From a virus: 45,498 nt of DNA. Of this stretch, positions 28,412 to 45,449 are shown in pieces (position 1 is the stretch's first letter; the number at the start of each line of letters is the position of its first letter). Below the pieces are notes generated by a model. It was not told where the DNA came from and did not search any database. It saw only the letters and a program-made list of their open reading frames with translations. The stretch covers positions 1 to 45,498 of IMG/VR virus record IMGVR_UViG_3300043467_000777; one strand, written 5' to 3'. The translations under genes were made by a program, and so were the position numbers.

Positions 28412-31400
28412 ATGGCAGAATTTAAACTAGGTAGAATAAGATTTGTTTGGAAAAATGTATGGACCGCTGCAACGGCCTACATCAAAGACGACGTAATTCG
28501 TTATGGTGGTAGAGTTTACATTTGTTTAGTAGGTCACACTGCCAATGCTGATTTTTATGTTGATCTAGAAAATGCTACCCCAAAATGGGGACAGATGAGC
28601 GACGGCCAAGCATGGCGCGGTGACTGGACAACACTAACATACTACAAAGAAAACGATCTTGTAAAGTGGGGCGGTCTGGTCTATATCTGTAACAACGGAC
28701 ACACATCCAGTACATATCTTGAAACCAATCAAGCCAATTGGGATTTATTTGCTGAAAGCCTTGACTGGAAAAGTACATGGACCGTAGGTACTTACTACAA
28801 AGTTAATGACGTAGTTAAATACGGTGGTTATACTTATTTGTGTATCACCAGCCATACCAGTAACGCCAGTGCTACATTATTGAGCGGAGGCCTAGAAGCA
28901 GATCAAGCCAAGTGGCAGGTAATACATCCAGGCCTAGAATACAAAGGCACATTCACAGGATCAGCACGATATAAAATTAATGACGTAGTCAAGTTTGGTC
29001 CAGATCTATGGATTTGTACAACATTCTATTATGCTGCTACCAGTAGTTTTGATGAATCAAAATGGCAATTGTTTGTAGGTGGATTAGAGTTTGAAGACAC
29101 CTGGAACAGTTCAGCAATATATCAACCAGGCGATGTGGTAGCACACAGTGGGTATGTATGGGTGGCTATCACTAATCACACTAACAGTATTCCGCAAGCC
29201 GCCAGTTCAGACTGGGATCTTTTCACAGTGGGATTTAGATTTGTAGGTGATTGGAACAGTTACGAAGATTATCTAACTGGTGACATTATCAGATTGGGCG
29301 GATACACTTACTTGTGTAAAGTATCCAACAACAATCAACTGCCTCCTAACAACAGTTATTGGGAAGTATTAAACACAGGATTCAGATGGAGAAGCACTTG
29401 GGTCAATGCCAACATCTATGTTCAAGGCGACGTGGTAAAATTCGGCGCCAACAGTTATGTATGTAAATTAGCACACACTGCATCTACATCAGTTAATGAT
29501 CCAGTGACTGATGCAGCACTGCTAGTCACAGTGTATTGGGATTTATTGGCAGGTGGTCCAGAAACATCAGTATTGACCACAACAGGTGACATTGTATATT
29601 ACGGTGGCGGCGGTCCAACAAGATTGCCAATTGGAACTGACGGACAAGTGTTGACAGTCAGCAATGGAGTACCATCATGGAACACATTTGGCGATGTACC
29701 AGGAGTGTATTATGTAAGCGCCACGGGTGTTGATGATGCGTTTGGCCTGTACGGAACAACATTAGATAAACCTTTTCAAAGTATTCGTTATGCCTTAAGA
29801 CAAATTGAAGAAGGTGCTAGAAATATCAACGCTGCTAAACTTCTTGAATTAAACCGTCAATTCATTCAGCGTGAAATTGTTGAGTGGACTGAAGAACAAA
29901 TTCTTACTAACACTGCTCCATTTATTTCATCATTTACCTATGACACTGTCAAGTGTGAACGTGACATGGGTTATATTATTGACGCAGTGATCTATGATCT
30001 TACACATGGCGGCAATGTTAGAAGTCGTGCAGCAGCATTGGCATATGTTACTAGTCCTGGTAATTTTTATATACTTGGACAAGAAGCAGAAACAGTGGCC
30101 AGCATTGCCTACGGATTAACTGTTATTGAAAAAGTATTAGGTAATTTGGCACCAACAGTTAATTATCAAGCATTGCAAACAGCCACTTGCACCAACACTC
30201 TATCAGGCACCAACAGAATTACTATATCAGCAGGCACCGGCGGTACAACAAGATTCAAAGTTGATGATGCTGTGGTATTTACAGGCACAACATTTGGTAA
30301 TATTGTAAGTGGTACAACTTATTTTATCAACACTGTAGTAAACAGCACTACAGTTACTATCACAGCAACCAAAGGTTCTGGCACACAATTTGTGTTGACC
30401 ACGGCCAGTGGCACAATGACAATTACTACTAGACAAATTGCACAGGTAATCGATGCAACCTATGTGTCAGAATCTGGTACATATGCCGCTACAACTAGTC
30501 TAGTGGCCATAGTGACCAATGCCATCACTGCTGGAGTATCTACCAATATACCAGAAGCAACAAAAATTCATGACACACTGTTTATAAAAACTGGCACCTA
30601 CAATGAAGTATTGCCTATAGTTGTTCCTGAAAGATGCAGTGTAGTAGGAGATGAACTACGAGCAACCACAGTACAACCTGGTACTGGAACTGTACACATT
30701 ACCGATGTTGCTGTGAGTTTAGCAGCACTTGGTCGTATTCAAAGTATTATCAGTAATGTTGTTCAAGGCGTTACTGTGACACCTACTGCGGGCAATGCCG
30801 AATCTCAAGTACAAGCATGGCCCTACGGCACTTCTACACAGGGCACATTGGCCGCAGGCCTAATGACCAATATTGTCAATTACATAAATTTCCACATCAA
30901 CGCAGTGGGCAGTGACCCTGCTATGACTGGAACCAACACTGCTGTCAGCAGTTATGATGTTTATGCTGCTGTGAGAATATTAGAACGCAACAAAGATTTC
31001 TTAGCCAACGAAGCCACAGCGTTTACCAATTTTACCTACAGTTGGACTGCTAGTGCCACTGCCGCTTCTACAGATGAAATCACAGTGGCATCTACTACTG
31101 GTATGACAGTCGACATGGCTGTGAGATTTACTGGCAGTGTGTTTGGTGGTGTTGCGTTAGCCACAACGTATTTTATTAAAACCATCGGTGCTGGAGTAAT
31201 TACTGTTTCAGCAACACGGGGCGGCGCAACATTGGATCTCAGCACTGCCAGCGGCACAATGACTGTGTCATATTTTTACGATCAAACACTGTGCCAAAAA
31301 GATATTGCGTATTATATTGAGTCTATCAAATATGATTTGATCTACACTGGCAATTATAAATCTCTACGTGCTGCAAAAACATATCGAAGAGCACAACAAG

Positions 31401-34342
31401 GCAGTTTGACTGAAAACATGTTCTTTGCACGAAATGGCAGTACCTTGCGTAACATGACATGGAACGGTTTGTCTGGTACTTTGGGAGCACCTAACATATA
31501 CGGCACTCGTCGTCCCACAGCAGGTGCGTATGTCAGTCTTGATCCGGGTTACGGTCCAGCAGACACCAATGTGCATATTTTGACTCGTAGTCCTTATGTA
31601 CAGAACGTGACCACATTTGGTACTGGTTGTATTGGACAAAAGGTTGACGGCAGTCTACACAGTGCAGGCAATCTCAGTATTACCTCCAATGACTTTACAC
31701 AGGTATTGAGCGACGGCATTGGTGCATGGATTACCAACAATGGTCGTGCTGAATTAGTTTCAGTGTTCTCATACTACAATCACGTGGGTTATTTGGCAGA
31801 AAATGGCGGCAAAATTCGTGCAACCAACGGCAACAACTCATACGGTGATTTTGGCGCAGTATCGGAAGGCATTGATGCTACAGAAACTGCTATCACTGCT
31901 ACCATCAACAATCGCAGCCTTGAAGCACAAGTGGCATTTGTATGGACTAACAATTCTAATATTTTAAGATATGAATACAGCAATGCCGGCACCGGCTATA
32001 CTACAGGTTCGTACACTGTAGCAGGAGCAGGAGTAGGCGGCGTAGCAGTGATGGATGAATTTAGAGATAATGCTGTGTTTGAAACACGAGTTGTTGATTT
32101 AGATTCAACCAACGAAGGCGGCTCTGATTACAAAGTGGCCAACAACACTGCACAGGGCGGCAATACTACCAGCATCACTTTGAGCGCCAGCGACAACGAA
32201 GCCAGTCCAGCATATGTTGGCATGGCCATACACATCACAGCAGGTCTAGGAGTTGGTCAATGCGGATATATTCAAGCATACAACTCTGGCACCAAAGTTG
32301 CTACAATTTACAAATTTTCAACTGGCACTGCAGGATGGGACCATGTGGTAGCAGGCTCTGCAATTGAAGCCAGTTTGGATTTGACCACAGCATATCTTAT
32401 CGAACCAAGAGTGACCTTTTCAGCACCAGGTTTCACAGCAGCTCCTGCTGCATTGACCACAGCTGCTGGTTGGTCTGCAGTGGGCTATGGCGGTGGAAGA
32501 TTTATTGCAGTGGCCAGTGGTGCTACAACTACTAATATTTCAACTGACGGTACAACATGGACTTCTGGTGGCGCATTGCCCAGCAGTGCTACCTGGACTG
32601 ACGTTCAATATGGTGCAGCAGACAACATATGGGTAGCAGTGGCTTCGGGCGGTACCACAGCAGCCAGCAGTGTAGACGGCGCAGCATGGGCTTTACAAGC
32701 ATTGCCAGTATCCGGCACATGGGTCAACGTGGCCTATGGTAATGGACGTTTTGTCACAATAGCCAGCGGCAGTACTAATACTGCATATTCAGATAATGGC
32801 ACTACATGGTTGTCGGGTGGTGCATTGCCAACCAGTACCACCTGGAGCAGTGTGACCTATGGTGCTGGATACTTTGTGGCAGTGGCCACTGGTGGAACAG
32901 TCACAGCAGTGTCAGTTAACGGCACTTCATGGGCATTGGGTGGTGCATTGCCCAGCAGTGACACTTGGAGCAGTGTGGCTTTTGGTAACGGACGTTTTGT
33001 AGCCACTGCAGGTGTCGGCGGAGCCAGCACAGCAGCCGCGTATAGTTTAGATTTTGGTGTAACATGGACTGCCAGCACATTACCATCTAGTACCACTTGG
33101 GCTAGACTGGCCTATGGTCAGGGAGTATTTTTTGTAGCAGCCAATGGCGGTACCTCAGCAGCCAGCAGCCCCGACGGGGTAACTTGGACCGCAAGAACAT
33201 TGGCCACCAGTACCAACTGGGTTGACACAGCATTTGGCAGCATCAGCGGTGTTCCAAAGTGGGTAGCAGTGGCCTCCAGTTCCACTGCTGCACAGGCAAT
33301 TGATCAAGGCGCGACCACAATAGGTCGTGCAGTGGTATCATCAGGACAAATTGCACAAATTAGAATTGTAGAACCGGGCAGTGGCTATGTGTCAGCCCCT
33401 ACTATCACTATCACAGATCCCAACAACACCGTGGAAGCCACATTTGAAGTGAGAACTGGTGACGGAGTATTGGCCAATCCTACTTTTACAAATAGAGGCA
33501 CAGGCTATACAACCAGTGCTGCTTTCGTGGCTGGTGACGGATATGCAGACATATTCCAAACTGGTGCATTTGTATTCGTCAACAATTTAACAGCAATTCC
33601 TACTCTTGGTAGTAACGTGCAAATTGCGGGTATTGACGGAATTTGGTACAAGTTGGTGTTGTTTACAGAACAGTCGGGCACGCCGGGTAATTACGCTGGT
33701 AGACTACAGTTGAGCCCCACAGTGGGAATTGCTGAAGCACCTAATCACGGACAAGCAGTGACTATTCGTATTAGATTTAGTCAGTGCAGATTAACTGGTC
33801 ATGACTTTTTAGATATAGGTACTGGTAACTTTACCCAAACAAATTATCCGGGTATACCATTACAAGAACCAGTGCCCGCCAACGAAACAGTTGATTCCGG
33901 TGGCGGTCGTGTATTCTTCACATCTACGGATCAAGACGGTAACTTTAGAGTAGGTAATCTGTTTACGGTTGAACAATCAACTGGTACAGCCACATTGAAC
34001 GCCGATGCGTTCAACCTCAGTGGTCTACAAGAACTGCAATTGGGGTCTGTAACATTGGGCAGTAGCAACACTGCGGTTAATGAGTTCAGTACAGACGCTA
34101 CATTTTCAGCTAACAGTGATTCAGTAGTGCCCACTCAAAAGGCTATCAAGACATATATAGCAAGTCAAATTGGTGGCGGTGGCAGTTCAATTGTGGCCAA
34201 CAGTCTAACTGTGGGCAACATTTACATTGCTGGCAACAGCGTTGGAACCACTTCGGGCGCAATAGATTTTACCAGTAATGTGAATTTTACAACTGGGGTT
34301 CGTGGCACTATATTGGCACTGAATTATCATTTATTGAGATGA
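28412..34342 (+). CDS. Giant adhesin-like tail fiber, largest gene (paralogue B2)
   Basis: The 1976-residue protein is the longer paralogue of 23802. Seven CBM5/12-like units fill about residues 5-390 (for example DVVKYGGYTYLCITSHTS). A beta-helix region starts near 430 (YYVSATGVDD). It is interrupted by material absent from B1: helical segments (FQSIRYALRQIEEGARNIN; FIQREIVEWTEEQILTNTAP) and two copies of a beta module (about 592-672 and 876-953) with the form [VM]-x-F-T-G-[ST]-x-F-G and ending A-S-G-T-M-T-[IV]. The beta-helix resumes with TRSPYVQNVTTFGTGC. Seven propeller-like repeats lie at about 1349-1626, and the C-terminal region shares GGGRVFFTSTDQDGNFRVGN. It is probably a very long receptor-binding fiber, more complex than B1 through insertions. 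Confidence 0.85.
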   Translation: MAEFKLGRIRFVWKNVWTAATAYIKDDVIRYGGRVYICLVGHTANADFYVDLENATPKWGQMSDGQAWRGDWTTLTYYKENDLVKWGGLVYICNNGHTSSTYLETNQANWDLFAESLDWKSTWTVGTYYKVNDVVKYGGYTYLCITSHTSNASATLLSGGLEADQAKWQVIHPGLEYKGTFTGSARYKINDVVKFGPDLWICTTFYYAATSSFDESKWQLFVGGLEFEDTWNSSAIYQPGDVVAHSGYVWVAITNHTNSIPQAASSDWDLFTVGFRFVGDWNSYEDYLTGDIIRLGGYTYLCKVSNNNQLPPNNSYWEVLNTGFRWRSTWVNANIYVQGDVVKFGANSYVCKLAHTASTSVNDPVTDAALLVTVYWDLLAGGPETSVLTTTGDIVYYGGGGPTRLPIGTDGQVLTVSNGVPSWNTFGDVPGVYYVSATGVDDAFGLYGTTLDKPFQSIRYALRQIEEGARNINAAKLLELNRQFIQREIVEWTEEQILTNTAPFISSFTYDTVKCERDMGYIIDAVIYDLTHGGNVRSRAAALAYVTSPGNFYILGQEAETVASIAYGLTVIEKVLGNLAPTVNYQALQTATCTNTLSGTNRITISAGTGGTTRFKVDDAVVFTGTTFGNIVSGTTYFINTVVNSTTVTITATKGSGTQFVLTTASGTMTITTRQIAQVIDATYVSESGTYAATTSLVAIVTNAITAGVSTNIPEATKIHDTLFIKTGTYNEVLPIVVPERCSVVGDELRATTVQPGTGTVHITDVAVSLAALGRIQSIISNVVQGVTVTPTAGNAESQVQAWPYGTSTQGTLAAGLMTNIVNYINFHINAVGSDPAMTGTNTAVSSYDVYAAVRILERNKDFLANEATAFTNFTYSWTASATAASTDEITVASTTGMTVDMAVRFTGSVFGGVALATTYFIKTIGAGVITVSATRGGATLDLSTASGTMTVSYFYDQTLCQKDIAYYIESIKYDLIYTGNYKSLRAAKTYRRAQQGSLTENMFFARNGSTLRNMTWNGLSGTLGAPNIYGTRRPTAGAYVSLDPGYGPADTNVHILTRSPYVQNVTTFGTGCIGQKVDGSLHSAGNLSITSNDFTQVLSDGIGAWITNNGRAELVSVFSYYNHVGYLAENGGKIRATNGNNSYGDFGAVSEGIDATETAITATINNRSLEAQVAFVWTNNSNILRYEYSNAGTGYTTGSYTVAGAGVGGVAVMDEFRDNAVFETRVVDLDSTNEGGSDYKVANNTAQGGNTTSITLSASDNEASPAYVGMAIHITAGLGVGQCGYIQAYNSGTKVATIYKFSTGTAGWDHVVAGSAIEASLDLTTAYLIEPRVTFSAPGFTAAPAALTTAAGWSAVGYGGGRFIAVASGATTTNISTDGTTWTSGGALPSSATWTDVQYGAADNIWVAVASGGTTAASSVDGAAWALQALPVSGTWVNVAYGNGRFVTIASGSTNTAYSDNGTTWLSGGALPTSTTWSSVTYGAGYFVAVATGGTVTAVSVNGTSWALGGALPSSDTWSSVAFGNGRFVATAGVGGASTAAAYSLDFGVTWTASTLPSSTTWARLAYGQGVFFVAANGGTSAASSPDGVTWTARTLATSTNWVDTAFGSISGVPKWVAVASSSTAAQAIDQGATTIGRAVVSSGQIAQIRIVEPGSGYVSAPTITITDPNNTVEATFEVRTGDGVLANPTFTNRGTGYTTSAAFVAGDGYADIFQTGAFVFVNNLTAIPTLGSNVQIAGIDGIWYKLVLFTEQSGTPGNYAGRLQLSPTVGIAEAPNHGQAVTIRIRFSQCRLTGHDFLDIGTGNFTQTNYPGIPLQEPVPANETVDSGGGRVFFTSTDQDGNFRVGNLFTVEQSTGTATLNADAFNLSGLQELQLGSVTLGSSNTAVNEFSTDATFSANSDSVVPTQKAIKTYIASQIGGGGSSIVANSLTVGNIYIAGNSVGTTSGAIDFTSNVNFTTGVRGTILALNYHLLR

Positions 34343-34433: not shown

Positions 34434-34754
34434 ATGGCAACAGGAAGATTAGGAACCGCAGATTTAGCAGCAACCACCAATACCACAGTGTATACCTGCC
34501 CAGCAACAACTTTTGCAGTGGCATCGATTTCGATATGCAATAGAAATGCTACAGGTATAACTGCAAGATTGGGATTGTCTGCCACCGCAACACCGGGTAC
34601 CGCAGAATGGTTGGAGTTTGGAGTCACAATACCAGCCAACTCGGTACTAGAACGAACAGGATTAGTAGTAGATGCAGGAAAAAATCTAGTGGTCTGGGCC
34701 AGCGGTACCGGCGCTAGTGCTGTGGCCTACGGCATCGAAACCAGCACGGTGTAA
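34434..34754 (+). CDS. Small beta-sandwich-like fiber-associated protein (copy 3)
   Basis: The 106-residue protein is the third of the interspersed set. Its order is TTVYTCPATTFAVASISICN, then an Ala/Thr-rich pair of strands, EFGVTIPANSVLERTGLVVD, GKNLVVWASGTGASAVAY and a short C-terminal strand. The I-x-I-C-N-R segment matches MICNRIP of copy 1. It has a GGAG site and lies between the giant fibers and the Cys-rich pair. It might cap or chaperone either; function unknown. Confidence 0.7.
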   Translation: MATGRLGTADLAATTNTTVYTCPATTFAVASISICNRNATGITARLGLSATATPGTAEWLEFGVTIPANSVLERTGLVVDAGKNLVVWASGTGASAVAYGIETSTV

Positions 34755-34769
34755 CGGAGAATATAACAT

Positions 34770-36383
34770 ATGGGACGTTTTGTACCAATAACAGTAACTA
34801 CGGTGGCTGGAGCAGAGAAGCCCAGCCAGTTTAGTGTTCCTGGCGGCAAGGGCTATTACAACGGTAAAGAATGCTGGCAATACAAAGTAGTATATGATCG
34901 CCCAGGCACATATACCTATACCTTACCCAGCACTGCAATCTGTGCTAGAACTGTATTAGTAGGTGGCGGCGGCAAGCCCAAATGTAGCGGCAGCAGTTTT
35001 GGTAGCGGCCAATGTTGTTCAGCAGCGGGTTCTGGTGGAGCCTACAGTGAAAAATGCTTTGTTGCCACAGGTGCACCAACACTTACACTGGTAGTTGGCG
35101 CCCAAGAATGTGACACAACTTTGGCTTGTAACTCAGTGGCAGTACATACTGCCGGCGGTGCAGCCGGATGTGTTCCAGGTTCAGCATCTGGCGGAGACTG
35201 GAACAGTACTGGCGGCCGGGCAGGTTGGGGCTGTATGTATTGCGGCGGCAGTGTCAGTCACGTTTCGCAGTGTTTTTACACCTGTTTTGCCACTTGTTGC
35301 GGTTATTGCATTGCATATGTGTGCGCTCCTTATCCTACGTGTGGTGATTGCCCTGCAATGTTTGTGGGCGGTGCTTCAGCAGGATCTCCTAAAAATGTTC
35401 AAGGCGGTTGCAGTAGTTGTCTTTGCGGATATCTGCATGCTAGCAGTGCTGGCGGCGGCGCTGGCATAGGCGATACTTGTTGTATGCCTATTTGGCATTA
35501 TCCATGTTGCAATTGCATATGTTTCACTAACACATGTTGCGGCGGCACGTTTCCATGTTTGAATTACCCTAACAGCAATCAAGGTGGCGGCGGGACTTCA
35601 CCTCGTTGCAACTTAGCATGTCGTAGCACTATGCAAACATGCACCGGCGGCTATTGGAAGACAGGAGAAGGCGGCCCTGGCGGACCTGACAACAGTGCCG
35701 CATATGGTTACGAATTTGAATGGGGATGGGCAGGAGCATGCGTTTATCCCTTTGGAGTACGATGCGGTTTTCAACACAGTCAGCCTCGATGTGCCTGTGC
35801 TGCACCAGTAAGACTGTGCGTGTTAAACAATGAACAATGGGACATTCAAAACATCTGTGGTACTGGTTCACCGGGCACTGGTCTGTTAACCTGTATTGGC
35901 TGTTACAGTGGCTGTGCCGATTATATTTCAACTCCTCGCCCAAGAAATGCAGGCGAGGGCGCCGGCACTGGTGGATTTTCGTTGTACAGATGTGGTGTTG
36001 ACGCTATACGAGATTTAGGCATAAGCACACTAAGCGAATGGGGACAGGATATGGTTAATTGGACAAAGATTTGCCAATTGGGCCTGTGCGGTCATTGTGA
36101 CCAGGCTTGGCTCATGCAAGATCACTTGTTCCCGCAGTTTATTACCTGCGCAGGTACACTGGGTGGATCAGGTGGCGTAGGCATCTGCGGATTTACTAGT
36201 CGAGCAGGCAAAGGCGGCGGTGGCGGACAATCTAAGAGTCAATTCCTCTGTGTGTGTCACGGCGGCTCATTTAACTTATGTAATGGGTCAGGACCGGCAC
36301 TGGCATTTCCTCCATGCATACTAGATCAATTGCTCAGCAATGCAGGTACAGGCATGGCCATTATATATTATAGGGAAGCATAA
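34770..36383 (+). CDS. Cys- and Gly-rich adhesin-like protein (paralogue C1)
   Basis: The 537-residue protein has about 53 cysteines (some 10%) and many glycine runs. After an N-terminal strand region comes PGTYTYTLPSTAICARTVLV followed by GGGG, then GSGGAYSEKCFV and LTLVVGAQE. This is the pattern of phage Gly-rich tail-tip domains (a hydrophobic strand, GGGG loop, G-G-x-Y-x-E, then a V-V-G strand). The rest alternates Cys pairs (CCNCIC, CFATCCGYC, CLCG) with Gly-rich loops. The C-terminal block, GTLGGSGGVGICGFTSRAGK then FPPCILDQLLSNAGTGMAII, matches its neighbour. It may be a disulfide- or metal-stabilised receptor-binding tip using a polyglycine sandwich like that of T-even gp38. No signal peptide is evident. 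Confidence 0.75.
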   Translation: MGRFVPITVTTVAGAEKPSQFSVPGGKGYYNGKECWQYKVVYDRPGTYTYTLPSTAICARTVLVGGGGKPKCSGSSFGSGQCCSAAGSGGAYSEKCFVATGAPTLTLVVGAQECDTTLACNSVAVHTAGGAAGCVPGSASGGDWNSTGGRAGWGCMYCGGSVSHVSQCFYTCFATCCGYCIAYVCAPYPTCGDCPAMFVGGASAGSPKNVQGGCSSCLCGYLHASSAGGGAGIGDTCCMPIWHYPCCNCICFTNTCCGGTFPCLNYPNSNQGGGGTSPRCNLACRSTMQTCTGGYWKTGEGGPGGPDNSAAYGYEFEWGWAGACVYPFGVRCGFQHSQPRCACAAPVRLCVLNNEQWDIQNICGTGSPGTGLLTCIGCYSGCADYISTPRPRNAGEGAGTGGFSLYRCGVDAIRDLGISTLSEWGQDMVNWTKICQLGLCGHCDQAWLMQDHLFPQFITCAGTLGGSGGVGICGFTSRAGKGGGGGQSKSQFLCVCHGGSFNLCNGSGPALAFPPCILDQLLSNAGTGMAIIYYREA

Positions 36384-36384
36384 A

Positions 36385-38004
36385 ATGGGACGTTACATCA
36401 GCACAGGCAGTACGCAAGCAAACGCATGTACACTTGTAGGCCAATCAGTTTGTTATCAAGTTAACGAACAAAAATATGATTATGATGGCAATTCCTGTTG
36501 GCAAAATCGAGTAATCATTGACACTCCAGGAAGTTATACTTTTACAGTTCCAGCAGGTGTGACTTGCTTACGAACTATCGCAATTGGCGGCGGCGGCAAG
36601 GCTTCTTTCGCTGCCAGTGCCAGTTGCAATTATGGCGGCGCTGGCGGCGGGTACGTGGAAAAAACAGACACTGTAGCATCGTGCTGCGTAGTGACAATTG
36701 TAGTAGGTCGTCAGCAACAAGACACTACAATTTCATATACTTCCACTAGTGGAGCAAGAACACTCACAGCAGGTGGCGGCGTTTGCTGCAATCCTGGTGC
36801 TGCATCAGGAGGTGATTGGAATTCAATCGGTGGTGCCAGCGGCTTAGGATGTGCTGGTGGCGCCTATTGCGGAGTTGGCAACTGTTTCCTTTTCAGCACT
36901 TGTTGTGGTTATTGTATGGTATATAGTGGTTACGGTATTACATACAGTCCTGACAATTCTCCGGGTTGCTGTAGCGGCAAAGCCCCCGGTGGCGGATCAG
37001 CAGGTTCTTGGATGTGGGCTTGTGGCGGCCAAGGTGGCGGCACGATTCAGGAAGATGAATATGTTGGTGGCGGCTACGGTCCAGCGGCAGGTGGCGGCGG
37101 CGGCATCGGCTATATTTGTAAAAAACCTGTTTACCCGGCTTTTTGTTCTTGTATCTGTACACCAGAACGTTGTGCCAATTACTACCCTAGTGGAAGAAAG
37201 AGTTATTATATGGGCGGAACCACTGGTGGTGGCGGCACCAAATTACAACGATGTGATTCTTCACTTAACAGGTGGTTTAGTTGGAGAGGCATGTGTGTCA
37301 GCGGCCAATGGCATCAAGGCCCAGGTGGCTGGGGTGGTTATGATAACGATGAAGGCCGCGATGCTAGATTTACTTGGTTTAGTAGCGGTTGTATACAAGG
37401 GATAAATTTTTTCCAAGATCACGGTCCGCAACCCAAACGCTATGCATGGCACGACATTCACAGCATGTGCGGCAGCGGCAGTCAAGGTAACAGTTTTGCA
37501 GACGGCGGCTGTTATCGTATGTGCAGCAACTGGAATCAAGGTCCACGATTGGCCATGAATGCCTATCACAATTCTGGTGAAGGAGCAGGCACTGGCGGCA
37601 TTGCCTATTTCTGTTGTGAACTAAACTCGATGAACATACCCTACTGCATGGGTGGCGCAGACTATTGCGCAGGAATAAATTGGACTTTGGTATGTTGTTT
37701 AGGTACAACTGGTAGAATTTGCTGCTCAGATCGCATGCAGGATCAACTGTTTCCCTACATCACCCATTGCGCAGGCACACTAGGTGGTGCAGGCGGTGTT
37801 GACATAGGTTGGATGGCCAGCCGTGCAGGTAAAGGTGGCGGCGCTGGAATGGTAAGATGTTTCTTGCACTGTATATGCTGGGGCGGAAGTTTTAACAACT
37901 GCAACGGTGGAGGAACACCACTAGCATTTCCACCATGCAAGTTAGACCAACTGGCAAGTACTGCCGGCACAGGTATGGCAGTTATATATTGGCGAAATCC
38001 ATAA
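36385..38004 (+). CDS. Cys- and Gly-rich adhesin-like protein (paralogue C2)
   Basis: The 539-residue protein is the tandem paralogue of the gene at 34770 and has about 43 cysteines (8%). The start at 36385 is chosen over an upstream in-frame ATG at 36340: it gives the MGR N-terminus shared with C1, follows a GGGAAG-type site, and lies two bases after the C1 stop. Shared landmarks are PGSYTFTVPAGVTCLRTIAI then GGGG, GAGGGYVEKTD, IVVGRQQQD, ASGGDWNS, CCGYC, GEGAGTGG, MQDQLFP, HCAGTLGGAGG and the C-terminal FPPCKLDQLASTAGTGMAVI. Conserved cysteines are spread over the length while the middle diverges in sequence. The two proteins may be alternative or co-assembled fiber tips. Confidence 0.75.
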   Translation: MGRYISTGSTQANACTLVGQSVCYQVNEQKYDYDGNSCWQNRVIIDTPGSYTFTVPAGVTCLRTIAIGGGGKASFAASASCNYGGAGGGYVEKTDTVASCCVVTIVVGRQQQDTTISYTSTSGARTLTAGGGVCCNPGAASGGDWNSIGGASGLGCAGGAYCGVGNCFLFSTCCGYCMVYSGYGITYSPDNSPGCCSGKAPGGGSAGSWMWACGGQGGGTIQEDEYVGGGYGPAAGGGGGIGYICKKPVYPAFCSCICTPERCANYYPSGRKSYYMGGTTGGGGTKLQRCDSSLNRWFSWRGMCVSGQWHQGPGGWGGYDNDEGRDARFTWFSSGCIQGINFFQDHGPQPKRYAWHDIHSMCGSGSQGNSFADGGCYRMCSNWNQGPRLAMNAYHNSGEGAGTGGIAYFCCELNSMNIPYCMGGADYCAGINWTLVCCLGTTGRICCSDRMQDQLFPYITHCAGTLGGAGGVDIGWMASRAGKGGGAGMVRCFLHCICWGGSFNNCNGGGTPLAFPPCKLDQLASTAGTGMAVIYWRNP

Positions 38005-38025: not shown

Positions 38026-38778
38026 ATGATTTGGGCAAAAATAGTAAACGATGAAATCATGCAGACGCATGATGAAAATCCAGCAGGACTTTGGCATCCA
38101 GATGCCATTGCAAAAAATGACTTGCCGGGGTATTGGGAAGAAGTTCCTGATCATGTTAATGTGGGCTGGAAATTTAAAAATAATCAATGGATATCAGGCG
38201 GGCAATGGATGGAAGAACAAGCGGCCGAAACCCCAATACTTCCGCCTGGCCCACCCGGTTGTCGCATTGACTTTACTCCTATTGAAGATAGGAGTAGTGT
38301 TGATCATCCAGTTGCGTTTGATTCGAGAGTGTCAGGGATATACGACACATGGAGTATCACCATAGGTGACACTGTATATTCTACAAATGTAACTGCAACT
38401 AATAGTGCAACTAATGAATTTACTTGTGGCACAACAGCATGGTTAACAGCGGGCGATCAAGTGACATTTATGGGCACAATGGGTGGTGTTGAGAAACATA
38501 AAGTATATGAGGTGAAGTCAGTAACTGATGCAACAAGATTTAAAATATGCGACCCAATGCAGCCACTTCAACTGTTAGAGTTGACTACAGATACCGGCAC
38601 TATGATGTTGTCGAAAGGTCCAGATTTTACACACATTTTCCAAAAGACTGATGCTCCGCAACCCCTTGCATTAAGTATTACCGTAACAGGCCCTGGCGGC
38701 ACAACTACGTATAATGCAGAAGGTGAACTGGCATTCGGTGTTCCTGAAAAATGGATTCCTTTATTTGCTAGACCGTAA
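38026..38778 (+). CDS. Fiber-region protein with a shared beta module
   Basis: The 250-residue protein starts MIWAKIVNDEIMQTHDENPA, like the N-termini of some tail-fiber assembly proteins. A Trp-rich segment follows (GYWEEVPDHVNVGWKF, then NNQWISGGQWM). Residues about 121-196 form a beta module (DQVTFMGTMGGVEKHKVYEV, ending T-D-T-G-T-M-M-L) that resembles the two inserted modules of the giant fiber at 28412. The C-terminus looks beta-stranded (ALSITVTGPGGTTTYN). It could be a fiber chaperone or a small fiber carrying a receptor-binding module; I cannot decide. It is the last gene before a strong terminator. Confidence 0.65.
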   Translation: MIWAKIVNDEIMQTHDENPAGLWHPDAIAKNDLPGYWEEVPDHVNVGWKFKNNQWISGGQWMEEQAAETPILPPGPPGCRIDFTPIEDRSSVDHPVAFDSRVSGIYDTWSITIGDTVYSTNVTATNSATNEFTCGTTAWLTAGDQVTFMGTMGGVEKHKVYEVKSVTDATRFKICDPMQPLQLLELTTDTGTMMLSKGPDFTHIFQKTDAPQPLALSITVTGPGGTTTYNAEGELAFGVPEKWIPLFARP

Positions 38779-38851: not shown

Positions 38852-39637
38852 ATGAAAAAACTTATAGATTCTCCGACACCAATTATATTTGTACAATATC
38901 CAGTTGGTGCAGGTGGTTGGTTTTTAACGTCGTTGTTGTATACTGCATTTAATCCAGCCGAACCGCTGAAACACAATGCACTAGGGTCAGGCCACGCTAA
39001 TACTAAAATTACATCTATCAACAATTTTAGTATGATTTCGTTAGAAGATACGTATCAATCTATTTTGTATCAAACTGAGTCTAATATGTCCCGTAACGAT
39101 AAGATAGAATATATTAGAAACACATTAATCAATAATCCTTACAAAGAAGAAACAATAATTCATACTATATCTATACATTGTCAAGACATCAACATATTCT
39201 TAGAAGCATTTCCCAACAGTAAAGCAATACAGATTGTGATTAAAGACGAACAAATTCCACAGTGTGCATTTAATTTTATCCACAAGGTATTAAAAGGAAA
39301 TTTAATATATTTTGAAAAAGTATGTAAAGATTATGATAAAGATTTTGAAATTGAAAAAACATATTTAGATAATATTAATTTGGCAAATCTTGATAATTTA
39401 AATTGGATTCACAAGTTGATAGATATGTCCAATATAAAAAACGAGATTTTAGAAAAGTTTGATAGTCGCGTACTAACAATAGATTATGATCAATATATAA
39501 ACCATGCCGATGCTAAACACTTGATTTCTTATATTGAAAATTTTTTACAAGCACAGTGGGGCACACAGATAAAAAATAAACTAGTAGACGAATTAGAATT
39601 GTATCGAACAATCCAACCAGCGTATCCTCAACAATAA
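38852..39637 (+). CDS. Sulfotransferase-like P-loop protein (1)
   Basis: The 261-residue protein begins with a hydrophobic strand and a glycine-rich loop (IIFVQYPVGAGGWFLTSLL, residues 11-29), like the 5'-phosphosulfate-binding loop of sulfotransferases or another P-loop. The rest is mostly helical and Asn/Lys/Ile-rich, and clearly more AT-rich than the fiber genes, which hints at separate ancestry. A clear 3'-phosphate-binding motif is not seen, so activity is unproven. It is followed with a one-base gap by a second protein of similar layout, and together with the SGNH gene forms a three-gene operon. The late-promoter motif ends four bases before the ATG and no ribosome-binding site exists. 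Confidence 0.6.
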   Translation: MKKLIDSPTPIIFVQYPVGAGGWFLTSLLYTAFNPAEPLKHNALGSGHANTKITSINNFSMISLEDTYQSILYQTESNMSRNDKIEYIRNTLINNPYKEETIIHTISIHCQDINIFLEAFPNSKAIQIVIKDEQIPQCAFNFIHKVLKGNLIYFEKVCKDYDKDFEIEKTYLDNINLANLDNLNWIHKLIDMSNIKNEILEKFDSRVLTIDYDQYINHADAKHLISYIENFLQAQWGTQIKNKLVDELELYRTIQPAYPQQ

Positions 39638-39638
39638 T

Positions 39639-40757
39639 ATGAATGTATTAATTTTAACACCAGATAGAGTAGGGTCAAGCCTACTGCAAAAATATATCAC
39701 AGTGACTATGCAGCATTATGATTATCAACGTCCGGTTATCAACCTGCACGAACTTACTAACGGAATCGAATCATATCATTCGACCAAATACAATCAACAA
39801 GTATTAGGCAAACCTAAGAAATCTACTTGGGGATATTATCAGTCATTGGAAGAAATAACAAGATTATTAAGCAGTGTAGATCACTATAAAGTATCAAGAT
39901 TGGCACAATATCATATTTTAAATAGACAAGACTTATTAAAAGATCAATTGAGTTTCTATCAATATATCAATGATAACTTTTTTATAATCAGTGCTCGCCG
40001 CCAGAATTTGTTTGAACATGCACTAAGTTGGTGTATCGCCGCATTTTCAAAACATCTAAATGTATACGATCATCAAGAAAAAATCAGCGTATTCAAAGAC
40101 CTGTATCAAAAGAAAATCACGATAAATCAAGAAGTATTTAAAAACTATCTAGACAAATATGTAAACTATCTAGGTTGGGTTGACAATCATTTTACAATTA
40201 ATTCAATATTTAATTATGAAAAAGATGTTGTGGATCTTGAGTCGTATGTGTCTAATCTTGATATATTCCCAATTAATCATCAGCCCGTAAGTTGGAAAGA
40301 TCAATATGGAATTTCGTGGAAAGACTGGAACACTTGTCATTATCTCATCAGCGACATGAGCGGATTTTCTGCATCTTTACCTCAAAATCAAAGTCTTCTT
40401 TTAGAAAATTCAAGTACTACTCAGCGTCCACTGTTGTCTATGAACATAAATCAACTGATGACACGCCCAGGATTAAGCGTAGCCCATCAAGAGTTTTTAA
40501 CTACAAATTCAACAAACTATATAAATGCCTATAGAACTATATATGACTTAGTAGACGACAGAACTTTGATCGCAGGAATGCCAATCAAATTACAAACTTT
40601 GGCTGAAAAAGCACTACTGATAAAGAATTTTGCCGAATGTCTGGATACTTATAACAACTGGAGCAGTGGATCTTCTGTGGGAAATTTTTTATCAATAGAA
40701 AATTTAAGTAATGCGGCATTGACAGAATTAGAATCATATTACAAAAGGCAAGCATGA
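39639..40757 (+). CDS. Sulfotransferase-like protein (2)
   Basis: The 372-residue protein starts MNVLILTPDRVGSSLLQKYI. The R-V-G-S-S-L-L loop matches the R-x-G-[ST]-[ST]-[LF]-[LV] phosphate-binding loop of sulfotransferases. A second segment near residues 117-131 (SARRQNLFEHALSW) fits the R-x(6-7)-[SA]-x-W 3'-phosphate-binding region of that fold. If active, it would move a sulfate group from PAPS to a glycan or other acceptor. The C-terminal half is helical without recognised motifs. It is strongly AT-rich like its upstream neighbour. Assignment to the fold is moderately supported; substrate unknown. Confidence 0.6.
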   Translation: MNVLILTPDRVGSSLLQKYITVTMQHYDYQRPVINLHELTNGIESYHSTKYNQQVLGKPKKSTWGYYQSLEEITRLLSSVDHYKVSRLAQYHILNRQDLLKDQLSFYQYINDNFFIISARRQNLFEHALSWCIAAFSKHLNVYDHQEKISVFKDLYQKKITINQEVFKNYLDKYVNYLGWVDNHFTINSIFNYEKDVVDLESYVSNLDIFPINHQPVSWKDQYGISWKDWNTCHYLISDMSGFSASLPQNQSLLLENSSTTQRPLLSMNINQLMTRPGLSVAHQEFLTTNSTNYINAYRTIYDLVDDRTLIAGMPIKLQTLAEKALLIKNFAECLDTYNNWSSGSSVGNFLSIENLSNAALTELESYYKRQA

Positions 40758-40758
40758 T

Positions 40759-41514
40759 ATGAAAGTACCTATTGAATTTATATTAACAACTACTGCCAAT
40801 GGATTCGAAACAACATGTGGCATAGACAGTCTTGAACACTGTTGTGATACAAATTATTTTAAAACTTATGCGAAAACCATCTTGTATGCGTACAATAGTC
40901 TTGGATATCGAGATGAAGAATGGCCCAGCGATTTAACCAATCATGTATGGTGTGTGGGCGATAGTTTTACTGTAGGACTTGGTCAGCCACATGAAGAGAC
41001 TTGGCCAAAACTTGTAGAAAAACAAATAGGCAACAGAATAATCAACGTCAGCATGAACGGTGCTAGTAATGATTGGATTTCACGACGAGTTCAATCAATA
41101 ATAGATAATTTTTCTCCAAAGGCTATTTTAATTCAATGGAGTTACTGTCATAGAAGAGAACATGCAGACACTACAATGCATGATGAAGATCGAAAAATAC
41201 ATTTTATTGCTCCCCAAGGTGGCCGAGAATCGTTTGCAGATCCGCAAGAATTAGATAAACTAAATTGTATAGAAAATATTTGTAAAATAACTCATCCAGC
41301 ACATGTAGAGATTATACATTCATTTATTCCTAGATTTGCGTTGGCTAGTGATGCTGCATTCATATATACTGAATTATCAAAAAACAAAATTAAATATTTT
41401 TCCGAACAACCTCAAATTGATCGAGCAAGAGACGGACATCATTATGATGTAGAAACTGCACAAAATTATGCAAATCTATATGTAAGCAAATTAAAGATGC
41501 AGAATGTTATCTAA
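40759..41514 (+). CDS. SGNH/GDSL-type hydrolase-like protein
   Basis: The 251-residue protein has the SGNH landmarks: a G-D-S block with the serine at about residue 69 (VWCVGDSFTVGLG), a G-x-x-N-D block near 101-105 (NVSMNGASNDW), and a C-terminal D-x-x-H near 225-228 (RDGHHYD). SGNH enzymes are esterases or acetyl transfer/removal enzymes, often acting on O-acetyl groups of polysaccharides. No signal peptide is seen, so it would act in the cytoplasm or on the virion. It closes the operon starting at 38852. Its stop overlaps the stop of the convergent oxygenase gene by eight bases. Confidence 0.75.
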   Translation: MKVPIEFILTTTANGFETTCGIDSLEHCCDTNYFKTYAKTILYAYNSLGYRDEEWPSDLTNHVWCVGDSFTVGLGQPHEETWPKLVEKQIGNRIINVSMNGASNDWISRRVQSIIDNFSPKAILIQWSYCHRREHADTTMHDEDRKIHFIAPQGGRESFADPQELDKLNCIENICKITHPAHVEIIHSFIPRFALASDAAFIYTELSKNKIKYFSEQPQIDRARDGHHYDVETAQNYANLYVSKLKMQNVI

Positions 41515-42025
41515 AGTTGGGACCATATACCCAACCAAAAATAGCATATCTAGTTCCTTCCTCAACAACTGATACCTTGTGCGGCATAAAAGAAGGAAAA
41601 ATTAATAATTTTCCAGGATGACACTCTACAGCAGAATCTGTTAGAGTTATAAACTCACCGCCTTGAAAGTTGTCATTTAGTAGTAATGAAAATGACAACT
41701 TGCGCTGATGTTCACCGCCTATACAATCCATGTGTAGACTACTGTAGTGCATGCCTTCGTCGTATCTTCCAAAAAAGCAATCAATGTGATTAAAATTCAA
41801 GTCAAGTTTAAAATGTTTTTCATTGATAAACTCGAGACTATCAGTTAAGTGCGGAACATCTGCAATATTCATATTTGATACTCGGACACTTCTGTAGGAT
41901 TTTTGTATTACGTTTTCTAGTTGGTCATTGTCGTGCTTAGAAATTAGTTGATTACATTGTACAGTGTCTAGTAGTGATTTACCAATCACTACAATTTGTT
42001 CATATTTTTGGGTTGACATTTGCAT
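41507..42025 (-). CDS. 2OG-Fe(II) oxygenase, prolyl 4-hydroxylase-like
   Basis: The 172-residue protein carries the set expected of a 2-oxoglutarate/Fe(II) dioxygenase: His98 and Asp100 in H-M-D, His149 in F-M-P-H-K-V, and Arg159 in T-R-Y-A-I to bind 2-oxoglutarate. GGEF and the strand KLLIFPSFMPH are typical of the P4Hc/PKHD group. Such enzymes hydroxylate proline or other side chains, sugars or nucleobases. It is translated from the same minus-strand transcript as the oxygenase gene upstream, whose 3' end it overlaps by 26 bases. An AAGAAG site precedes the ATG at 42025; a second ATG lies two codons in. Confidence 0.85.
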   Translation of the reverse strand: MQMSTQKYEQIVVIGKSLLDTVQCNQLISKHDNDQLENVIQKSYRSVRVSNMNIADVPHLTDSLEFINEKHFKLDLNFNHIDCFFGRYDEGMHYSSLHMDCIGGEHQRKLSFSLLLNDNFQGGEFITLTDSAVECHPGKLLIFPSFMPHKVSVVEEGTRYAIFGWVYGPNFR

Positions 42026-42587
42026 ATATTTTTTCTTCTTTATAGTAGTCGTTAATATGAGAGTTGATACATATTTCCATATTCACTGCAATCCGATAGT
42101 CACTACCACTATGAAACAATGGCTCGTGAACAGTGTAATTGGGCATAATTAACAAATCTCCTTCGTCGGGCTGAAATTGAATTATAGGTTTTGTAAACGG
42201 ATAAAGATTTAAACCGCCTTCGTTTGCCAACATGTCATTAGAAATTTTTAAATAGTACACAGCATTAATTGAAGCAGTGTGAATATGATTGTGAGCATTA
42301 GTTTTAAAGTTATCTTTGTTGTATACATTAGCCCAGCACCAAGGTTTGTGTTTAGCCGCAAGATCAATCGGACCAAATATTGATTCTACTACGGAAAAAA
42401 AATAGTTATACAATTTGTCAAAATCACCGTGCATGTCCTCGATATGAAATGTGTATCCACCGTGATAATTTGCTGTGTCTTTTTGAGACAATACAGTGTT
42501 GATCATTCGTTGACGAGTAACATCATCTAAAATATATGTAGTTTCTAAAACTTCGGGCATCAGAGGATTGTGATATAAATCATACAT
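42000..42587 (-). CDS. 2OG-Fe(II) oxygenase of the phage/cyanobacterial type
   Basis: The 195-residue protein resembles the putative 2OG-Fe(II) oxygenases (PF13759-like) common in marine phages. It has a His cluster with iron-ligand candidates (NAHNHIHTASINAVYYL, His99-His103), GGLNLYPF, the strand GDLLIMPNYTVHEPLF with distal His154, and Arg165 in Y-R-I-A-V-N. The second acidic iron ligand is not obvious, so metal binding may use the His cluster. It is the first gene of a two-gene minus-strand operon whose second member is another 2OG oxygenase. The target is unknown; fibers, glycans or host factors are possible. Confidence 0.8.
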   Translation of the reverse strand: MYDLYHNPLMPEVLETTYILDDVTRQRMINTVLSQKDTANYHGGYTFHIEDMHGDFDKLYNYFFSVVESIFGPIDLAAKHKPWCWANVYNKDNFKTNAHNHIHTASINAVYYLKISNDMLANEGGLNLYPFTKPIIQFQPDEGDLLIMPNYTVHEPLFHSGSDYRIAVNMEICINSHINDYYKEEKIYANVNPKI

Positions 42588-42798: not shown

Positions 42799-43725
42799 AT
42801 GAAAAAAATATTTTTTATCAACGGCGGTGCCGGACGAGTATTGGCCAGTATTCCGGCATTAGAAGAAAGCCACCGTAGAGGAGAACTGGCAGGAATTGTG
42901 TGCGAAGGCGGCATGGAGTTCTATCTAGGACATCCTGTCTTGCAAAATTATGCATTTGATGTCAATCACAAAGGCATTTTTGAAAATCTTATCAAAGATA
43001 ACTTATGCGTTAGTCCCGAGCCATATAGAGATCACGAATACTATAATCAACGCAGTAGTTTGCAACAAAGTTTTTGGTGGGAAATTCTTGGAGAACGCAC
43101 CGACAAAAATATCAGACCCACAGTGGTGCTAAACAAGTCTGAAGAAATGTCTGCTATGGAAATAATAGGACAGGTCAAACAGCAACACCAAAAAGAAAAA
43201 ACCATTGTAATTCAACCATTTGGACGCAGCAGCAGTCTAGGCGGCGGCGGAGTAGTGTTTGACGGTAGCAGTCGTAGTATAGAACAGTCCACCTTTATGG
43301 AATTAGTTGCAGAATTATCCAAAGACTACAACATCATGTATATGGGTGAACACAAATTAAATGTTGTAAATCTTCCTATTTTTCAACCAGACAATAATAT
43401 GCCGTTGAGAATCTGGGCCGCAATTATAGAGTCCGCCGATTATTTCATAGGATGTGACAGTGTGGGTCAACACCTGGCCTATGCATTTGACAAGCCTGGC
43501 ACCATAGTGTGCGGCAGTACATTTCCGGTGAACATTACATATCCTGAGCACTTTAACATTGTAGAAAAGAAAAACGCAGTGCGACACTACAGTCCAATTA
43601 GAATTGCAGGGTTTGCCAGTGAAGAAGCGGATAGACTAAATGACACCATAATGGATTTCAGCAAAGACGAATTAAAAAGTATCATTGCCGGTATTAAAGC
43701 ACACATTGCTAAAACAACAAAATAA
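42799..43725 (+). CDS. GT9-like (heptosyltransferase-type) glycosyltransferase
   Basis: The 308-residue protein has the two-domain Rossmann layout of family 9 glycosyltransferases. It opens MKKIFFINGGAGRVLASIPAL (first strand, then a Gly-rich loop and a P-A-[LV] segment). Residues about 135-140 (IVIQPFG) form the start of the second domain, and ADYFIGCDSVGQHLAYAFDK near 215-232 matches the G-x-[DN]-[ST]-G-x-x-H-x-A motif that binds the sugar nucleotide. ADP-heptose transferases of LPS synthesis use this fold; the donor here is unknown. A clear AAGGA site precedes the start. It is cotranscribed with the carbamoyltransferase 11 bases downstream, which suggests sequential sugar transfer and decoration. 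Confidence 0.7.
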   Translation: MKKIFFINGGAGRVLASIPALEESHRRGELAGIVCEGGMEFYLGHPVLQNYAFDVNHKGIFENLIKDNLCVSPEPYRDHEYYNQRSSLQQSFWWEILGERTDKNIRPTVVLNKSEEMSAMEIIGQVKQQHQKEKTIVIQPFGRSSSLGGGGVVFDGSSRSIEQSTFMELVAELSKDYNIMYMGEHKLNVVNLPIFQPDNNMPLRIWAAIIESADYFIGCDSVGQHLAYAFDKPGTIVCGSTFPVNITYPEHFNIVEKKNAVRHYSPIRIAGFASEEADRLNDTIMDFSKDELKSIIAGIKAHIAKTTK

Positions 43726-43736
43726 GGAACTACCAC

Positions 43737-45449
43737 ATGTGGTTATTAGGAATTAATGTAGGACATAACGGTGCCGCGGCACTGTATAAAGATAGTGAAT
43801 TGATTTTTTATATAGAAGAAGATCGATTAAGTCGTATGAAGTATGACGGCAATCCGTTCTTGGGAATTGAAAAAGCATTTGAATACACCGATCATATTGA
43901 TTTTCTTATTCTGTGCGGCACTCGCAATGCATTTGGTAAAGTATTCTGGACTGGCGAAGATCCATACACTTGCTTAGTAAGAAAAAAACAACCAGGATAT
44001 AGAGTTGAAACTATTAAACTAGGTGATTCTCATCATATGACTCATGCGGTGACTGCTTTTTATAACAGTGGATTTGATGATGCAGCAGCCTTGGTAATTG
44101 ATGGCGCCGGTAGTGGCATTGACGTTCCGGATCTAAAAGAGATTTGGAATGATACATGGGAAGTTGAATCTATTTGGACTCTTGGATATCCTGCAGAAAT
44201 AAAACGACATCTAGTAAATTATGGCACGAACCTTATTGATAGTTTTGAACTTACTGACAATGAATGTCAAATAGAAGTTTCTGATGGTCATGGTATTACC
44301 AAGAGTTATGAAGCAGTGACACAGTATCTTGGTTTTCATGCTATTGAAGCAGGAAAAACTATGGGAATTGCACCGTACGGCAAACCCAATGACAGCATCA
44401 AGATCCACGATGGTAGATTCAACAACAGAAGTTTAATTAAACCAAAGTTTCCTGCTGGAAATGTTATTAGATGTGATTTAAATCCAGAACTAAAAGAACA
44501 CGAAGGTGATGTTGCTTGGCACACTGATCCAGACCTCATCGACGACTTCAGGAAAGACCTAGCATATGCTGTACAGAAATCAGCGGAAGAACGTGTAATT
44601 GCATTAATCAGAAAAACAATAGAATTAACTGGCAAGAAGAAAATTGTCATGGCCGGCGGCTTTGTTTTAAACTGTGTAGCCAACTATGAATTCTTAAAAG
44701 AATTTCCTGATGTGGAATTTTATCACGAACCAGTGGCTCACGACGGCGGCAATGTGATGGGTGTATGCCAACATGTTTACAGAACTATTACTAAAGATTC
44801 TGTTAAGACACCGTTAACTAGTTTATACTTAGGCCTGGATCATTCTGCAGAATACGCAACAGCAGATTTTACAGGCTTCATTGTTGCAGATACCACTGCG
44901 GCTGATGTTGCAAAATTGATAGCAGAACAGGAAATTGTTTGTTTATATCAAGGTCGTAGCGAAGCCGGACCACGTGCATTAGGTAATCGTTCGATACTGT
45001 TTGATCCAACAGTTGTCAATGGTAAGGATATTGTTAATGAAGTTAAACACCGTGAATGGTTCCGTCCATTTGCTGGATCGGTAATGGCAGAACATGCTGC
45101 CGAATGGTTTGACTTCCGCTCACGTACAGACAGTCCGTTTATGATGTATGCTGTAAATGTGTTGAAAGATAAACAGGCCTTGATTCCTGCAATTACTCAT
45201 GTCGACGGAACTTGTAGAATACAGACTGTGACATCAGAACAAAATCCGCACTATTACGAATTAATTAGTGAATTTAACAAATTAAAAGGCGTGCCTATTT
45301 TGTTCAACACTAGTTTTAATTTAGCAGGCGACCCGTTGGTTGAAACAGTTAAGGAAGCATTGACTACCCTAGAAAGATCAGAAATGAAATATCTATGGTT
45401 ACCGGACATTGGTAAATTATTGACAAAAAATAATTTCACAGAAGTTTAA
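43737..45449 (+). CDS. NodU/CmcH-type carbamoyltransferase
   Basis: The 570-residue protein is a complete member of the carbamoyltransferase family, which moves a carbamoyl group from carbamoyl phosphate, through an adenylate intermediate, to a hydroxyl of a sugar or antibiotic. The N-terminal Kae1-like domain starts LLGINVGHNGAAALYKD. The metal-binding histidines lie in GDSHHMTHA near residues 96-104, followed by AALVIDGAGSG. MAGGFVLNCVAN near 305 is a nucleotide-site segment. The C-terminal YrdC-like domain has YQGRSEAGPRALGNRSIL near 404-421, HREWFRPFAGSV near 440 and VPILFNTSFNLAGDPLVET near 520. Usual family length is 550-610 residues, so it is intact. Its acceptor may be the product of the GT9-like neighbour. 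Confidence 0.93.
   Translation: MWLLGINVGHNGAAALYKDSELIFYIEEDRLSRMKYDGNPFLGIEKAFEYTDHIDFLILCGTRNAFGKVFWTGEDPYTCLVRKKQPGYRVETIKLGDSHHMTHAVTAFYNSGFDDAAALVIDGAGSGIDVPDLKEIWNDTWEVESIWTLGYPAEIKRHLVNYGTNLIDSFELTDNECQIEVSDGHGITKSYEAVTQYLGFHAIEAGKTMGIAPYGKPNDSIKIHDGRFNNRSLIKPKFPAGNVIRCDLNPELKEHEGDVAWHTDPDLIDDFRKDLAYAVQKSAEERVIALIRKTIELTGKKKIVMAGGFVLNCVANYEFLKEFPDVEFYHEPVAHDGGNVMGVCQHVYRTITKDSVKTPLTSLYLGLDHSAEYATADFTGFIVADTTAADVAKLIAEQEIVCLYQGRSEAGPRALGNRSILFDPTVVNGKDIVNEVKHREWFRPFAGSVMAEHAAEWFDFRSRTDSPFMMYAVNVLKDKQALIPAITHVDGTCRIQTVTSEQNPHYYELISEFNKLKGVPILFNTSFNLAGDPLVETVKEALTTLERSEMKYLWLPDIGKLLTKNNFTEV

Follow-up and report, generated by a model that had tools for sequence, protein, structure and literature searches.

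The window analyzed here (45,498 nucleotides, positions 1-45,498 of the IMG/VR virus record IMGVR_UViG_3300043467_000777) carries two adjacent genes on its plus strand, A (34770-36383) and B (36385-38004), each predicted to encode a cysteine- and glycine-rich tail-tip protein. The product of A has 537 residues, including 53 cysteines (9.9%) and 97 glycines, and that of B has 539, including 43 cysteines (8.0%) and 107 glycines (or 554 residues if translation starts at an in-frame ATG at 36340). The initial annotation of this DNA had given these lengths and approximately these cysteine counts, which compare with 79 cysteines in 13,615 residues (0.58%) over the remaining predicted proteins of the window. 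It also supposed a duplication that left shared ends and a divergent middle, and this is what the sequences display: A and B are tandem paralogues, 38% identical (BLASTP, E = 5e-83), whose alignment is conserved at both ends and gapped in the middle.

The pair follows a gene for a long tail fiber of 1976 amino acids (28412..34342, plus strand) that contains CBM5/12-like repeats (Pfam CBM_5_12, E = 1.4e-21; PHROG 9851, tail fiber, E = 1e-190). The fiber matches cyanophage tail fibers, its gene is conserved 5' of A and B in related loci, and it is likely to be the shaft that bears the tip proteins. In between is a small gene (34434..34754, plus strand) whose 106-amino-acid product matches PHROG tail fiber families; relatives 39-74% identical to it are found in related loci and in P-SSM2, S-CAM1, and S-CAM3, and it served as the marker of the locus. 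On its other side, the pair adjoins a gene for a 250-amino-acid protein (38026..38778, plus strand), with relatives of 163-282 amino acids that come after A and B in related loci. Its family is present in 22 of 58 loci with cysteine-rich tips and in none of 18 with cysteine-poor tips (the two forms are described below), and one might guess that it is a fiber chaperone. Further along, two proteins of 261 and 372 amino acids (38852-40757) give no Pfam match above the cut-off; they occur in 13 and 11, respectively, of the 58 cysteine-rich loci and in 0 of the 18 cysteine-poor loci.

B falls just short of the Pfam cut-off for Gly_rich_2 (PF21722), with 23.9 bits versus 24.3 (E = 4.9e-5); A gives no match, and 3 of 11 relatives do match. 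A model of B built from 36 sequences (pLDDT 72.6, pTM 0.80, with the N-terminal 29 residues not confident) is predicted to consist of a TNF-like domain and a glycine-rich domain. Foldseek aligned the model to the Pam3 fiber (7ypx, E = 3.4e-4) and to the glycine-rich domains of ALK and LTK (probability up to 1.0), and 129 viral models matched at E <= 1e-3; phage proteins with a glycine-rich domain account for many of these. Since the Foldseek alignments are partial and the global TM scores low (about 0.14-0.28 against Pam3), the model backs the type of domain rather than the entire fold. Taken together, the near match, the model, and its fold matches bear out the glycine-rich tail-tip scaffold that had been proposed from the sequence.

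The best PDB fold match of the model, gp24 of Pam3 (PDB 7YPX), is a myophage fiber tip with a TNF-like and a glycine-rich domain, to which host recognition has been assigned (PMC9608196). Unlike B, it has its own helical shaft, and a search through the text of the paper describing it turned up neither cysteine nor disulfide. Salmonella phage S16 gp38 (PDB 6F45; PMC6851490) is similar in being a tip adhesin encoded with a long fiber and in having glycine-rich motifs with variable segments between them, but it has its own sandwich domain, more than 50% glycine, and its own three-helix attachment domain; 6F45 is absent among the 50 fold matches listed for the B model and shows no sequence match. 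Sequence searches of the PDB with A/B and cyanophage profiles also gave no meaningful match. The host range of a phage is largely set by its tail-tip proteins. Given that the B model matches Pam3 gp24 and the ALK glycine-rich domain, and that the tip genes lie directly 3' of the long tail-fiber gene in related loci with enough sequence and in cyanophages as well, A and B are probably receptor-binding adhesins at the distal tip of the long tail fiber.

Cysteine-rich and cysteine-poor tips

The A and B pair was found again in about 25 more IMG/VR contigs (some of them 280 and 356 kb in length), with 41-53 cysteines in the full-length copies. Both copies stand in tandem in every relative with enough sequence, so the duplication must be old. 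One B homologue is divided between two overlapping frames of 393 and 124 amino acids (L021:7500-9223), reflecting either a frameshift or a sequencing error. No relatives of A or B were found in 84,980 bacterial and archaeal species genomes, and A, B, and the L057 protein described below had no tblastn match in 50,697 phage records; the relatives in cyanophages were found solely through neighboring marker genes. At the same locus, the cultured cyanophages P-SSM2, S-CAM1, S-CAM3, and S-SSM7 each encode 2-3 proteins with 8-11.6% cysteine. These belong to PHROG 4205 and 35878, whose homology to A and B extends over the N-terminal domain (hhalign, E = 3e-6 and 1e-5), but the proteins differ in their number of copies per genome and in being shorter (260-356 amino acids). 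Sf-FS3 and AG-345-F15 have cysteine-rich proteins at the corresponding locus too.

S-SM1, Syn9, and Mosig have glycine-rich proteins with 0-2% cysteine at the equivalent position following the tail fiber. The marker was found in 80 loci, 73 of them with enough sequence to be surveyed: 42 were cysteine-rich, 25 cysteine-poor, 6 neither, and none mixed, and the distribution of cysteine content in the tip proteins is bimodal. The cysteine-rich form has less glycine than the cysteine-poor form (17.6% versus 22.7%), less histidine (2.1% versus 3.0%), and less serine and threonine; cysteine is raised. Several relatives of B match Gly_rich_2, which B itself narrowly misses, and S-SM1, Syn9, and Mosig encode ordinary Gly_rich_2 proteins at the same type of locus. 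The ordinary members have 0-3% cysteine and mostly more than 20% glycine, as against 8-12% and about 18% in the cysteine-rich group.

Some cysteine-rich proteins look quite unlike A and B. In two loci, a single long protein with Gly_rich_2-like ends is encoded with the marker and a GT9 gene (see below) nearby: 1209 amino acids with 139 cysteines in L057 (5021-8647) and 1458 amino acids with 137 cysteines in L070 (contig 3300044723_011190). In marine virus AG-345-P14 (L183), the marker is followed by a 282-amino-acid protein with 9.2% cysteine that matches nothing in Pfam at E <= 1; more than one scaffold can therefore carry the trait. An intermediate protein of 498 amino acids with 4.8% cysteine is found in L279 and L280 (6305), with a gene of the GT9 family nearby. 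A literature search turned up no description of a cysteine-rich tip class, and the class with about 10% cysteine is a real, conserved variant of the glycine-rich tail-tip adhesins, apparently undescribed in the searchable literature.

The window is a mosaic: its fiber is closest to those of cyanophages and its major capsid protein (11130-12305) to those of jumbo phages (68-72% identity to PA5oct-like phages and Phosso). The host of the phage need not be a cyanobacterium, since psbA was detected in P-SSM2 but in none of the 15 IMG/VR contigs examined for it.

Selection on the cysteines

Cysteines that vary among homologues would, by its own account, have counted against the initial annotation. 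They are instead among the most conserved residues: a cysteine of the window proteins is matched by cysteine in 0.74-0.75 of comparisons with relatives, with glycine at 0.79-0.81 and nearly all other residues lower, and at 15 positions of the alignment cysteine accounts for 93% or more in both the A family and the B family. Among close relatives, 86-100% of the cysteines are retained while TGT and TGC are swapped at 7-22 sites, and dN/dS over the whole gene is 0.07-0.17, indicative of purifying selection. The retention of cysteine despite the interchange of its codons, together with the low dN/dS, implies that the cysteines are selected as amino acids. Chance composition was considered as their source and ruled out by the codon analysis. 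The same dN/dS values give no support to the receptor-driven change by which the divergence of the paralogues had been explained; at the level of the whole gene, diversification of that sort is not seen.

The number of cysteines is steady although many of their positions turn over. Pairs of cysteines are gained or lost together no more often than expected from glycine, serine, threonine, asparagine, and tyrosine columns, in a comparison of low power with few informative columns. As for spacing, the CC, CxC, and CxxC groups that had been called numerous in A and B occur within these two proteins about as often as in shuffled sequences (the highest value, z = 2.1, belongs to CC in B). When 41 non-redundant relatives are taken together, there is indeed an excess of CC (z = 6.8) and of CxC (z = 4.6), but CxxC is depleted (z = -2.4). 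A CxCxC motif (B 254-258) is conserved, as is CCGYC.

A linked cassette of sugar genes

Downstream of the tip genes, on the plus strand, are a gene for a 308-amino-acid protein resembling GT9 heptosyltransferases (42799..43725, phrog_8954) and another for a 570-amino-acid carbamoyltransferase of the NodU/CmcH type (43737..45449; Pfam Carbam_trans_C, E = 7.8e-62; Carbam_trans_N, E = 3.1e-20). The likeness to GT9 comes from profile matches at the level of the family: Pfam Glyco_transf_9 matches 15 of 24 members (best E = 4e-6; the window member, at 0.02, is below the cut-off) and the NCBIfam model for heptosyltransferase III matches 23 of 24 (best E = 2e-7; the window member, at 6e-4, is below the curated cut-off). 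The GT9 profile had no meaningful match in the PDB. The tie between these genes and the cysteine trait had been missed by the initial annotation.

Within 6 kb after the marker, the family of the 42799 gene is found in 35 of 58 cysteine-rich loci versus 0 of 18 cysteine-poor loci. Over whole contigs, it is found in 45 of 48 that are cysteine-rich (the three without it are short or doubtful) and in 0 of 20 that are cysteine-poor; it is absent in S-SM1, Syn9, S-PM2, PA5oct, and Phosso, and Mosig has a single weak match broken by a stop. Combining the results (with the match in L232, a cysteine-rich locus, counted on the cysteine-rich side) gives 54 of 57 versus 0 of 20. The corresponding Fisher value of 1e-15 overstates the linkage, because the rows are not independent: the well-supported branches of the marker tree contain just one independent pair. 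On that tree the cysteine label is clustered, and the best tree calls for 7-9 changes of state, most forks being weakly supported.

Two further enzymes follow the same pattern. The carbamoyltransferase is present in 25 of 25 cysteine-rich contigs or genomes and in 3 of 15 cysteine-poor or control records, and a strong match (E < 1e-29) to the HldE adenylyltransferase domain is present in 18 of the 25 and 0 of the 15. The absence of genes from the cysteine-poor set weighs less than it might, since many of those records are fragments (S-SM1, Syn9, S-PM2, and Mosig are complete). The linkage is kept across the unlike cysteine-rich proteins of L057, L070, and AG-345-P14. Cysteine-rich tips thus occur almost only alongside genes whose products seem capable of making and transferring a heptose-type sugar, and a trait so tied to sugar genes suggests that the cysteines may be chemically decorated, not simply paired.

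Other kinds of modifying enzymes lie near tips as well. Two 2OG-Fe(II) oxygenases (41507-42587, minus strand) adjoin the tail module of the window, similar oxygenases come after the cysteine-poor tips in S-SM1 and Mosig, and in Syn9 the tips are followed by tryptophan halogenases, so perhaps tip genes travel generally with modifying enzymes. A special tie of the cysteine trait to the oxygenases, and hence to hydroxylation, was weighed but set aside, as they accompany 8 of 58 cysteine-rich loci and 2 of 18 cysteine-poor loci.

Possible roles of the cysteines

Starting from the observed content and conservation of the cysteines, the selection upon them, and their tight linkage to the sugar cassette, we tentatively favor the idea that they are acceptors for an S-linked sugar. 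A heptose-type sugar would be made with the HldE-like enzyme of the phage, the GT9-like protein encoded downstream would put it on cysteine thiols, and the carbamoyltransferase would carbamoylate this sugar. Such decoration would stabilize the tip and alter its contact surface (one may compare the heptosylation needed by autotransporter adhesins). We infer all three elements: the action of the enzymes on A and B, the choice of cysteine as acceptor, and the identity of the sugar as heptose. Cysteine is singled out because it, and not serine or threonine, is raised in these tips, because its count holds while positions turn over, and because the transferase accompanies the trait even where the proteins are unlike one another, the one in AG-345-P14 included. 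TibC offers a parallel as a heptosyltransferase that hyperglycosylates adhesins, but its acceptor is serine, not cysteine, and it has a four-cysteine iron finger (PMC4358343). No comparable set is conserved in the phage family, whose alignment contains only one nearly invariant cysteine, C219. We know of no GT9 enzyme that S-heptosylates. The subthreshold GT9 assignment of the window member, taken alone, also weighs against the S-linked sugar, as does the failure of the family profile to match anything in the PDB. In its broadest form, that widespread aquatic phages, including cultured marine cyanophages, mass-modify dozens of tip cysteines with an S-linked carbamoylated heptose by means of HldE-like, GT9, and carbamoyltransferase enzymes, the proposal is rather doubtful.

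The formation of disulfides after lysis ranks just below the S-linked sugar and is nearly as likely. The tip would be made reduced in the host cytoplasm, its cysteines would pair in oxygenated water once the host has lysed, so that loops of the glycine-rich domain become cross-linked, and the sugar cassette would be a mere neighbor. Abundant, conserved cysteines in an extracellularly exposed protein are what one would expect in that case, as are the enrichment of CC and CxC across the family and the 15 nearly invariant columns (which also suit structural roles); the lower glycine content of the cysteine-rich form looks as if cross-links replaced part of a glycine lattice. Disulfides, however, leave the linkage to GT9, HldE, and carbamoyltransferase genes unpredicted, the low-powered comparison found no cysteine pairs gained or lost together, and no thioredoxin-family protein was found in the 11 contigs searched (controls were positive; those for the sulfhydryl oxidase PF04777 were silent, so that search carries no information). 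The cassette could also work on host glycans or other phage glycans, and its association with the tips may stem from the inheritance of one gene block. Perhaps, then, it modifies a host surface glycan or serine and threonine in the fiber, while the cysteines, inherited in the same block, have a separate role. The closeness of the genes and the clustering of the cysteine label on the marker tree agree with this, and the three enzymes would suit the editing of surface glycans equally well, but such co-inheritance seems unlikely in view of a linkage that spans unlike cysteine-rich proteins, one lacking a detectable Gly_rich_2 scaffold, and of the repeated changes of state on the best tree, weak though most of its forks are. 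Very improbable is the binding of zinc, iron, or a cluster as a means of stabilizing the tip: the many cysteines and the conserved CxCxC and CCGYC motifs might invite it, but CxxC is depleted, histidine is lower than in the cysteine-poor form, not raised, and no zinc or iron-sulfur family was matched in Pfam. Of what the initial annotation had entertained, metal binding in the form of classical knuckles is unsupported, as is receptor-driven change at the level of the whole gene, while its tail-tip scaffold, its duplication, and its exceptional cysteines, now seen to be conserved, are supported.

The cysteine-rich tip class is conserved over widely diverged phages, alternates with the ordinary cysteine-poor class at the same locus, and owes a testable biochemical meaning to being so tightly linked with sugar-transfer genes. 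The cultured, non-pathogenic cyanophages P-SSM2, S-CAM1, S-CAM3, and S-SSM7 carry the trait, so the test can be made directly. If the cysteines are glycosylated, they would represent a new kind of modification of phage adhesins; if instead they form disulfides, oxidation after lysis would be a step in the maturation of the virion.
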